A stretch of DNA of 30,851 bases, taken from the IMG/VR virus record IMGVR_UViG_3300042898_002304, positions 1 to 30,851 of that record; one strand, 5' to 3'. Positions 28,713-30,773 of this stretch are shown piece after piece (position 1 is the stretch's first letter; each line of letters begins with the position of its first letter). The stretch is from a virus. A model generated the notes under the pieces. It was not told the origin of the DNA, did not search any database, and was given only the letters and a program-made list of their open reading frames with translations. The translations under genes and the position numbers were made by a program.

Positions 28713-28750
28713 TATCTTTTAACAGCGCAGAAACCAACCAAGGACATATG

Positions 28751-29059
28751 ATGACTAAAGCAATCCCTCAAAACTACACCCCCGAACAAACTACCGAACT
28801 CGTGACTGGATACCAGTCGGGCAAGACTGTGGAGCAACTGGCCACGACTCTGGGCAAAACCGTACGTTCGGTGGTTGCCAAGCTTGCACGCGAAGGCGTG
28901 TACGTGGCCAAAACCGCGGCTAAGGGTCAGACCCGTGTGAAAAAAGCCGAACTGGTTGACCAACTCGCACATGCTTGCGGTGTGGCCCCAGAAGTGTTTG
29001 AGAGCTTGGAAAAAGCCAACCACGACGTGCTCGAAGCACTGGTTGCCAAACTGGCTTGA
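28751..29059 (+). CDS. HTH DNA-binding protein, paralogue 3 (102 aa)
   Basis: Third and most diverged paralogue. ATG 28751 is preferred (AAGGA six bases before); ATG 28748 directly upstream is possible. The N-terminal half keeps the YTPEQTTELVTGYQSGKTVEQ and GKTVRSVVAKLAREGVYVAK core; the C-terminal domain (FESLEKANHDVLEALVAKLA) matches the family pattern. Its codons are clearly GC-richer than those of the AT-rich genes at 23736-26765, suggesting a different history. It is the last rightward gene before the large noncoding RNA region. Confidence 0.75.
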   Translation: MTKAIPQNYTPEQTTELVTGYQSGKTVEQLATTLGKTVRSVVAKLAREGVYVAKTAAKGQTRVKKAELVDQLAHACGVAPEVFESLEKANHDVLEALVAKLA

Positions 29060-29064
29060 GCTTG

Positions 29065-29096
29065 GGGTCACAAAATCTACACTTGATCTGTGACCC
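29065..29096 (+). terminator. Hairpin after HTH gene 3, overlapping the next promoter
   Basis: GGGTCACA/TGTGACCC 8-bp stem without a clear T-run. The -35 TTGATC (29083-29088) lies at the 3' end of its loop, so terminator and promoter may be coupled. Confidence 0.55.
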
Positions 29097-29111
29097 ACAA
29101 TTTGATATAAT
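29083..29111 (+). promoter_or_regulatory. Promoter with extended -10 after HTH gene 3
   Basis: TTGATC-N17-TATAAT with TGA before the -10. The transcript runs into 29118-29312, where no gene with a normal start is seen. Confidence 0.75.
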
Positions 29112-29277
29112 AATATCTTAGAAATTAATAAAGAACCCAATCGGGAATGGCTTAATGAATACCAAACAACTTTGTTAGTTGGTGCCAGTTCCGCTTCAGC
29201 AGCCCACCTCACTACCCAGCAATTAGATTGCAACTATCTGTGTGGCTAGCCTGCAAGCAACGATTGGAATTTCTTTG

Positions 29278-29306
29278 TTGATTTTGTCTTTTAAATAGCG
29301 TATAAT
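29278..29306 (+). promoter_or_regulatory. Strong promoter of the giant noncoding RNA
   Basis: TTGATT and an exact TATAAT are 17 bases apart. The start is expected near 29313-29316. A second TATAAT at 29312-29317 is close by but lacks a -35. Confidence 0.85.
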
Positions 29307-29400
29307 AGATATATAATAGGGTGACAGCGGATGCCAAAGTTGATGGCAATACGTCTTAATTGTGGAAAAGCGAAAGCCCCCGAGCCACAGCCCTTAGCAA

Positions 29401-29547
29401 CCATAATCAAAAGCTTAGACTGAGCTAGCCTGGTTGTGCTAGTTAATGTATGCAGATGGAAATGTTTCGACTAGTAGGGCTCGGCCGAGCCTCGAACGCG
29501 ACAATGCTGCAACTTAGACTAGACATTAACTAAGCTTTTGATTATGG
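29401..29547 (+). other. 18-bp perfect helix domain in the 5' part of the giant RNA
   Basis: CCATAATCAAAAGCTTAG (29401-29418) pairs perfectly with 29530-29547. Inside, TTCGA/TCGAA encloses the palindrome GGCTCGGCCGAGCC, and TAGTTAATGT can pair with ACATTAACTA (29440-29449/29523-29532), competing with the end of the 18-bp helix. Confidence 0.85.
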
Positions 29548-29624
29548 GTGTTATGAGTCTGGCACATATGTCCAGATAACAACTTGATAGCTACCGAAGT
29601 CTCTAGTAGCTGCCCACCTTACAC

Positions 29625-29699
29625 ACTCGATTCGTCTATCGGTTAGGACAGCGGCTTTTCAAGCCGTTAAGAGGAGTTCGATTCTCCTATCGAGTACCA
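29625..29699 (+). tRNA. tRNA-Glu (anticodon TTC)
   Basis: Acceptor stem ACTCGAT/ATCGAGT pairs fully, discriminator A, and CCA is encoded at 29697-29699. Anticodon stem GCGGC/GCCGT closes loop TTTTCAA with anticodon TTC at 29658-29660. T arm AGGAG-TTCGATT-CTCCT. The GTCTATCGGTTAGGAC D-arm fits tRNA-Glu. It reads GAA/GAG codons. It stands inside the giant RNA, so RNase P and 3' processing would split the transcript. Confidence 0.93.
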
Positions 29700-30083
29700 T
29701 ACAAGGAGAGACAACTCCGTGCCCCTATAAGGCTGTGCAGAACCAAAACCGTGTTGCTTGCGAAACCCGGCATGATGGTAACATATAACCACCAACCCTC
29801 TGATGAGCACATGCAAGTTGTGCGAAACTCTAAGGCCTCACAGCAAGTGTGCGAACTACTCCCACAGTTCCGCTTGCCGTACCTTAGGGTCAGGACGAAA
29901 ACCCACGATCACGAAAACTGGAAGTAGCAACCTGCGGAGCTCCGGCTCCTGCAGCAAACTACCGAAACCTACTAGGTAGTGGAAATGAGTAAACCCTAGG
30001 GTACGGTCCCTATATCCCACGTCGTGTTATCCTGTACCCACGTTAAAAGGTCTTAACCACTAGTGTGATAGACTGCAATTATC

Positions 30084-30262
30084 CGACCCTAAGTCGTTAA
30101 AAGCTGTGGAGGTAGTATGTAAGCTTCGGCTGTGTACGCCACTGTAGGAGGATAAACCTGTGAAAGCCGACCCCAAACTGCACCAGGGTCGTGAAAAATT
30201 ATGTGTGGTTGCTAAGCGGTGGACCCGTAAGCCGACAAAGCCCAAAGTCGTAAAAAATGTGG
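30084..30262 (+). repeat. Three repeated modules in the 3' part of the giant RNA
   Basis: Each has CGAC...GTCG (or CGACCC...GGGTCG), then an A-rich joint (TTAAAA, TGAAAAA or TAAAAAA), then TGTGG. They are at 30084-30109, 30168-30208 and 30233-30262. A second likeness, CCAATACT plus CACGGAT, appears near 30280-30300 and 30351-30364. They may be repeated structural units. Confidence 0.6.
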
Positions 30263-30516
30263 TAAGCTGAAGAGCCGAGCCAATACTGTAAGTCACGGAT
30301 ATCCTAGGCGTTGGAAGCGAAAGGACCGAAACGTGCATTCCCCCGAACACCAATACTCACGGATTAACCCACCAGTGGTACGATTGCAGCGGTTTAGGGT
30401 CAGGTAGCGTGGTGCGTAAATCCTGAGTTGGATCACAGAGGAAACCTGGTTGCTGAGATGCAACACTACGACAACCACTATAAAAAATATCGGTGTTCCC
30501 TATAATTCGAATGATA

Positions 30517-30601
30517 TTTCAAAAGCCCCAATGCATTCGTGCTTGGGGCTTTTGTTTTGGGTGTAAAACACCACCAACAAAATTTTAAACGTGCCTGCGC
30601 C
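30517..30601 (-). ncRNA. Predicted leftward small RNA from promoter I
   Basis: Promoter I (30602-30631) predicts an RNA of about 85 nt starting GGCGC near 30601, with hairpin GGTGT/ACACC and the terminator at 30521-30553. No reading frame. Confidence 0.55.
30521..30558. terminator. Strong terminator of the giant RNA, active both ways
   Basis: AAAAGCCCCAA/TTGGGGCTTTT 11-bp stem, inner GCATTCGTGC, then TTTTGTTTT on the plus strand. On the minus strand it can end the small RNA from promoter I. Confidence 0.9.
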
Positions 30602-30773
30602 ATTTTACCCGCAAGTGGTAATCCTTGTCAAGTGGGTTTTCTCCAATCTGACCCTAAGCTGCAGTATGCGGCAGCAAATCGCCGAGTTTTGCTAGACTCC
30701 AGGTCAACAAGTGCACGAGCAACGTACATGTAGTCAAAACGTGTTCGAATTCAACAACAATTAGAACACGTAA
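30559..30773. other. Noncoding stretch after the giant RNA
   Basis: No gene. It holds leftward promoter I, a TCTGACCCTAAGCTGCAG segment (about 30649-30664) complementary to TTAGGGTCA sites in the giant RNA, and an 8-bp hairpin ACGTGTTC/GAACACGT (30739-30771) directly before the next terminator. Confidence 0.55.
30602..30631 (-). promoter_or_regulatory. Leftward promoter I of the repeated family
   Basis: On the minus strand TTGACA-N18-TAAAAT then GGCGC; the -10 differs by one base from the others. Confidence 0.6.

Follow-up and report, generated by a model that had tools for sequence, protein, structure and literature searches.

What is produced from a phage locus of more than a kilobase that has transcription signals and no conserved reading frame, and what becomes of the product? 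The window (the whole stretch of DNA analysed here, an IMG/VR virus record) carries its head, tail and terminase genes in the leftward direction, and the locus in question lies at its right end, 3' of a D5-like gene. The phage is probably T5-like, judging from its terminase, which shares about 50% identity with the terminases of 112-118-kb Vibrio phages, and from small proteins encoded in the window that matched a D5-like PHROG family; its genome was put at roughly 100 kilobases, of which the window covers 30.9 kb. To our knowledge, no functions have been assigned to giant ornate phage RNAs, and the roles of phage hammerheads are likewise unclear. We consider it probable that the locus represents an uncatalogued family of large structured phage RNAs bearing a hammerhead ribozyme, by which the transcript is predicted to be cut into two structured RNAs.

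Transcription unit and RNA family

A preliminary description of the window had proposed a structured non-coding RNA of giant size, transcribed as a separate unit. The near-consensus promoter and the strong terminator on which it relied are both present (Table 1), and TATAAT also precedes GGGTGACAGCGG in most relatives. The terminator is a perfect 12-bp inverted repeat (CAAAAGCCCCAA/TTGGGGCTTTTG, 30520-30531/30543-30554) followed by a T-rich sequence; an automatic scan, which allowed loops of up to 8 nt, missed it on account of its 11-nt loop. We infer that the giant RNA forms a transcription unit of its own, bounded by this promoter and this terminator. The stretch had also been described as free of reading frames: its longest open reading frame is 97 aa, where shuffled sequences average 91, and nearly all of the 32 further relatives tested were similar; a hidden protein gene was thereby rejected. 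The GC content of the RNA is 48% versus 40% for the window. The minimum free energy (MFE) of the window RNA was -387 kcal/mol, a value without a shuffle control at that length, so that the evidence for structure is taken from covariation and not from energy.

Related loci were collected by using the protein encoded at 28748-29059 (23 loci, in most of which the RNA follows the protein gene) and by using a sequence pattern of the 5' domain, which is the most conserved part apart from the ribozyme (55 stretches); after merging, 45 distinct loci in IMG/VR phage contigs were obtained, with the window copy counted. The RNA lengths range from about 430 to 1390 nt; note that, for L031, L052 and L057, the computed 3' end lies beyond the first terminator. 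Seventeen RNAs were aligned and folded with alifold, and many covarying helices were obtained. For the 143 pairs outside the ribozyme, 91.1% of the cells were paired (35-45% in slid controls), 60 pairs were changed on both sides (23-30 slid) and 212 cells were changed on both sides (34-54 slid). The structure came from the same alignment, which somewhat favours the real fold; in our judgement, the contrast goes well beyond this bias. Lack of covariation among homologues, named in the preliminary description as grounds for abandoning the structured RNA, was thus not what we found. The long-range complementarity noticed there (29395-29418/29530-29553) is also real, with 12 covarying pairs in its 18-bp core. 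One alifold helix (29352-29357/29892-29897) was rejected, as it was without covariation and was lost in L014, L016 and L021.

Table 1. Positions of the promoter, RNA elements and terminator in the window
Feature	Position	Strand	Evidence
Sigma-70-type promoter TTGATT-N17-TATAAT	29278..29306	+	10/12 consensus bases
Giant non-coding RNA, about 1240 nt	29319..30558	+	Conserved blocks, covarying helices, no conserved ORF
5' domain GGGTGACAGCGG..CGTCTTAATTGTGG..CCGAGCCACAGCCC	29319..29393	+	Invariant columns; source of search pattern
Long hairpin, 18-bp basal helix 29401-29418/29530-29547	29401..29547	+	Both-side changes in 12/18 pairs
Hairpins GUGUUAU/AUAACAAC and UAGCUAC/GUAGCUG	29548..29612	+	Second helix (29588-29612): 6/7 pairs covary
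tRNA-Glu, anticodon UUC, encoded CCA, optional insert	29625..29699	+	Rfam tRNA match; same tRNA in same region in 14/45 loci
Hammerhead ribozyme, type I topology	29797..29894	+	Conserved core, covarying stems
Stem I 5' strand CCU (pairs with AGG 29892-29894)	29797..29799	+	Compensatory U-A to A-U, C-G to U-A
Core CUGAUGA (C3-A9)	29800..29806	+	Invariant except N7, 33 sequences
Stem II GCACA/UGUGC, conserved loop UGCAAGU	29807..29823	+	4/5 pairs covary
Stem II strands	29807-29811/29819-29823	+	Reading of window against relatives
Core GAAA (G12-A15.1)	29824..29827	+	Invariant, 33 sequences
Stem III 29828-29835/29882-29889 with extended covarying hairpin 29840-29880	29828..29889	+	Covariation
U16.1 (29890)-C17 (29891), predicted cleavage 29891^29892	29890..29891	+	U invariant; C in 32/33, A in one
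3' structured region including long-range helix 30085-30096/30390-30401	29895..30515	+	That helix: 92% of cells paired, little covariation
Intrinsic terminator	30520..30558	+	Inverted repeat; stem covaries in relatives

Several neighbouring elements were also observed. Immediately upstream lies another conserved, structured RNA of about 135 nt (29083-29275), which the preliminary description overlooked; it has its own promoter (29083-29111), a closing stem with some covariation (29137-29143/29261-29267) and several inner helices. In L053, L072, L078 and L081, this small RNA and the 5' domain of the giant RNA occur without an intervening promoter, as if fused. A leftward near-perfect promoter, TTGACA-18-TAAAAT (30602-30631, minus strand), faces the terminator of the giant RNA, and a similar element is also present in relatives. 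The 100-kb contig IMGVR_UViG_3300043436_004120 has two non-identical copies of the RNA, one per end (L039, 1-1557, and L004). A permuted, betaproteobacterial-type tmRNA (L056, 7630-8007) and many tRNAs are encoded on one RNA-bearing phage contig, and a tRNA array is also found with L058.

Comparison with known large RNAs

The preliminary description offered two assignments, a member of the GOLLD or ROOL class and a new class. As for the former, GOLLD (Rfam RF02032; the accession given earlier, RF01998, is group-II-D1D4-1) scored about 4 bits at best, with the cut-off at 150, in the window and 16 related phage records, and ROOL (RF03087) gave zero matches in the same records in a search without a positive-control match. 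A divergent GOLLD or ROOL RNA is therefore a very improbable reading, despite the likeness in size, phage location and internal tRNA. GOLLD is likewise phage-borne, about 0.8 kb or more, ornate and modular, and its variable region (linker) can hold a tRNA (PMC12286853); ROOL is also a large phage or prophage RNA close to tRNAs. However, the conserved sequences differ from those of GOLLD, and neither covariance model is matched. GOLLD is marked by a conserved 3' domain and by assembly into 14-mer cages. Both GOLLD and ROOL form cages, and the word hammerhead is absent from the GOLLD cryo-EM paper (PMC12286853). By analogy, the giant RNA may act as a large RNA scaffold. The 800-nt non-coding RNA of phage ICP1 (PMC7567579) is similar as an abundant, ORF-less phage transcript of comparable size; a sequence relation to it was not found, as the window and L047 searched against the phage collection gave tRNA matches alone or nothing.

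As for the new class, the family of 45 loci stands on its own, with no Rfam match except the tRNA. In the window, tRNA alone reached the Rfam gathering level, and only chance-level matches appeared up to E 10; in the phage, plasmid and species-genome collections, no relatives beyond tRNA-sized matches were found. Dozens of IMG/VR phages carry this broad family, which is nevertheless missing from Rfam 15, the searched phage collection (tRNA matches aside) and the searched papers. It is most suitably classed as a new, hammerhead-bearing family of large ornate phage RNAs.

The hammerhead ribozyme

The covariation-supported hammerhead within the giant RNA (Table 1) was overlooked in the preliminary description. 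Its order in the relatives is CCU-CUGAUGA-stem II-GAAA-stem III-UC-AGG. When loci of at least 560 nt, gathered without the ribozyme, were searched with the core and the stems as criteria, the hammerhead was present in 34 of 42, versus 4 of 4,200 order-1 shuffles; the window has a single match and its opposite strand zero. For the alignment, 33 copies were recognised by the core, their loci having been gathered independently of it. All catalytic residues are kept in the 33 copies, with variation at the permitted N7 and one change of C17 to A; the core CUGANGA, GAAA and UH are found in 33/33, together with three stems in order and with covariation. Changes on both sides occurred in three pairs of stem I, four of stem II and four of stem III (11 of the 16 pairs). 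The cells of the hammerhead pairs were paired in 90.8% (25-47% when slid), and the covariation score was 0.395, versus 0.158 for shuffled and at most 0.115 for slid alignments. Comparative sequence analysis thus shows that the RNA family is conserved and structured, and that its hammerhead covaries and has its catalytic core intact.

Two further hammerheads, in L052 and L057, were spotted by eye and later by the model built from the aligned copies. This model also finds three variants with a long stem II that were outside the training set (L026, L069 and L082). In other viral contigs, it recognises two compact hammerheads of the ordinary kind whose loop II is the same (L087 and L093). The Rfam model Hammerhead_3, which is independent of our alignment, had its best match on the ribozyme element in all 14 records with any match (records up to 128 kb; E 2e-4 to 1.3, all sub-threshold), and this coincidence is strong support for the hammerhead assignment. 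The Rfam hammerhead models gave no score for the window itself, even at E 10, and the cut-offs were not reached in any case (RF00008, best 24-28 bits versus 48.5; RF00163, best 13 versus 34). These cut-offs are insensitive to this type, because the compact, canonical-looking L087 and L093 fail as well; note that a cut-off is a detection rule, not a structural feature.

Phage hammerheads are known from intergenic regions (Perreault et al. 2011, PMC3088659). The identical catalytic core, the three stems and the GUC cleavage triplet are shared with the type I hammerheads of phages and bacteria (RF00163, RF00008 and RAGATH-1 RF03152; PMC3088659). In contrast to these, the present ribozyme has a very short stem I (3 bp in the window, 3-5 in relatives) and a stem-loop III of about 60 nt, sits within a giant non-coding RNA, and scores under the Rfam cut-offs. 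No earlier description of a hammerhead within a giant phage RNA was found in the searched literature.

The shortness of stem I, the sub-threshold Rfam scores and the MFE fold of the window ribozyme, in which a shifted CUG/CAG pairing is preferred over stem I, would be consistent with a mere structural three-way junction that does not cut in the cell. We regard this as unlikely, since the bases that the chemistry, and not folding alone, requires (G5, G8, G12, A6, A9, A13, A14, U16.1 and H17) are invariant across 33 relatives and since UGNAA in loop II persists although stem II varies freely, as would be expected if this loop made a tertiary contact. Moreover, in L048, L052 and L057 the first stem I pair is changed from U-A to A-U, by which the hammerhead stem I is kept and the alternative register is broken; these compensatory changes favour the hammerhead register.

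The hammerhead is missing in six loci that have the 5' domain and enough sequence (L053, L058, L072, L078, L081 and L083). A second type of large-looking structured RNA with the same kind of hammerhead was seen in other viral contigs (L085, L086, L088 and L029); its cleavage dinucleotide is UA, and its flanking domains differ.

Predicted cleavage, tRNA-Glu and the repeated motif

We infer the following course from the sequences. Transcription would proceed rightward, and the ribozyme would cut at the predicted site once synthesis of the 3' strands of stems III and I was complete. The 5' piece of about 573 nt would comprise the 5' domain, the optional tRNA-Glu and the ribozyme body, which the type I topology leaves on this side, and would end in a 2',3'-cyclic phosphate; the 3' piece of about 667 nt would start with a 5'-hydroxyl. 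Because conserved helices remain in both pieces, the likeliest role would be maturation: one precursor would yield a pair of structured RNAs, which either come apart or stay joined through tertiary contacts as a two-part particle. Maturation is also favoured by what speaks against the other roles: gene control by cleavage is unlikely because the transcript has no downstream protein-coding gene, and phage-made circles are disfavoured because there is one ribozyme per record (13 of 16 phage records) and no RtcB. RtcB was absent from the 16 related records in a search with a positive control, by which circularisation by a phage ligase was rejected, and T4 RNA ligase 1 was not found in the related records in a search without one; a second hammerhead for rolling-circle processing was rejected on the single ribozyme per record. 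More tentatively, and with the chances rather against it, the halves of the self-cutting RNA might act jointly as an RNA particle in which tRNA-Glu(UUC) recurs as a cargo or module, that is, as a phage ribozyme-matured RNA machine. With an intact ribozyme in a constant position in most of the family, one biochemical step of a giant phage RNA becomes open to direct assay and phage hammerheads gain a defined host transcript; the predicted cutting in two would be a concrete handle on what giant phage RNAs do.

The internal tRNA of the preliminary description is a tRNA-Glu(UUC). Where a tRNA is present (14 of the 45 loci), it is invariably Glu(UUC) with an encoded CCA, placed in every case between the 5' domain and the ribozyme, and in seven loci (L005, L008, L010, L012, L048, L052 and L057) the CCA end abuts ribozyme stem I. 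This arrangement would suit a giant RNA that is chiefly a tRNA-Glu precursor, in which the ribozyme and the rest serve tRNA maturation. Such a reading is quite improbable: about two thirds of the loci are without the tRNA, the ribozyme and the structured domains being intact in most of them, and the predicted cut lies about 95 nt past the tRNA end even where the two abut.

The motif TTAGGGTCA overlaps the cleavage strand of the ribozyme and occurs in the window at 29884, 30394, 30649 (minus strand) and 30834. It is found in 7-15 copies per 100-kb genome (the reversed control has 1-3), forms a cluster at the RNA locus and is possibly a binding site for a D5-like protein. Since it is enriched genome-wide, the conservation of the cleavage strand may be partly at the DNA level. 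This enrichment and the D5-like DNA-binding proteins encoded adjacent could point to a DNA element (an operator or a replication-origin array of TTAGGGTCA) instead of an RNA, which we consider extremely improbable, as compensatory changes are found across the helices, motif-destroying changes in stem III are matched on the other strand (L010, L019, L022, L033 and L048), and the locus has a promoter, a terminator and a tRNA. A switch in which the cleavage strand pairs with GACCCUAA at 30085 was also considered and rejected; because relatives that alter the ribozyme strand keep GACCCUAA, the latter was assigned to the copy of the motif at 30394 instead.
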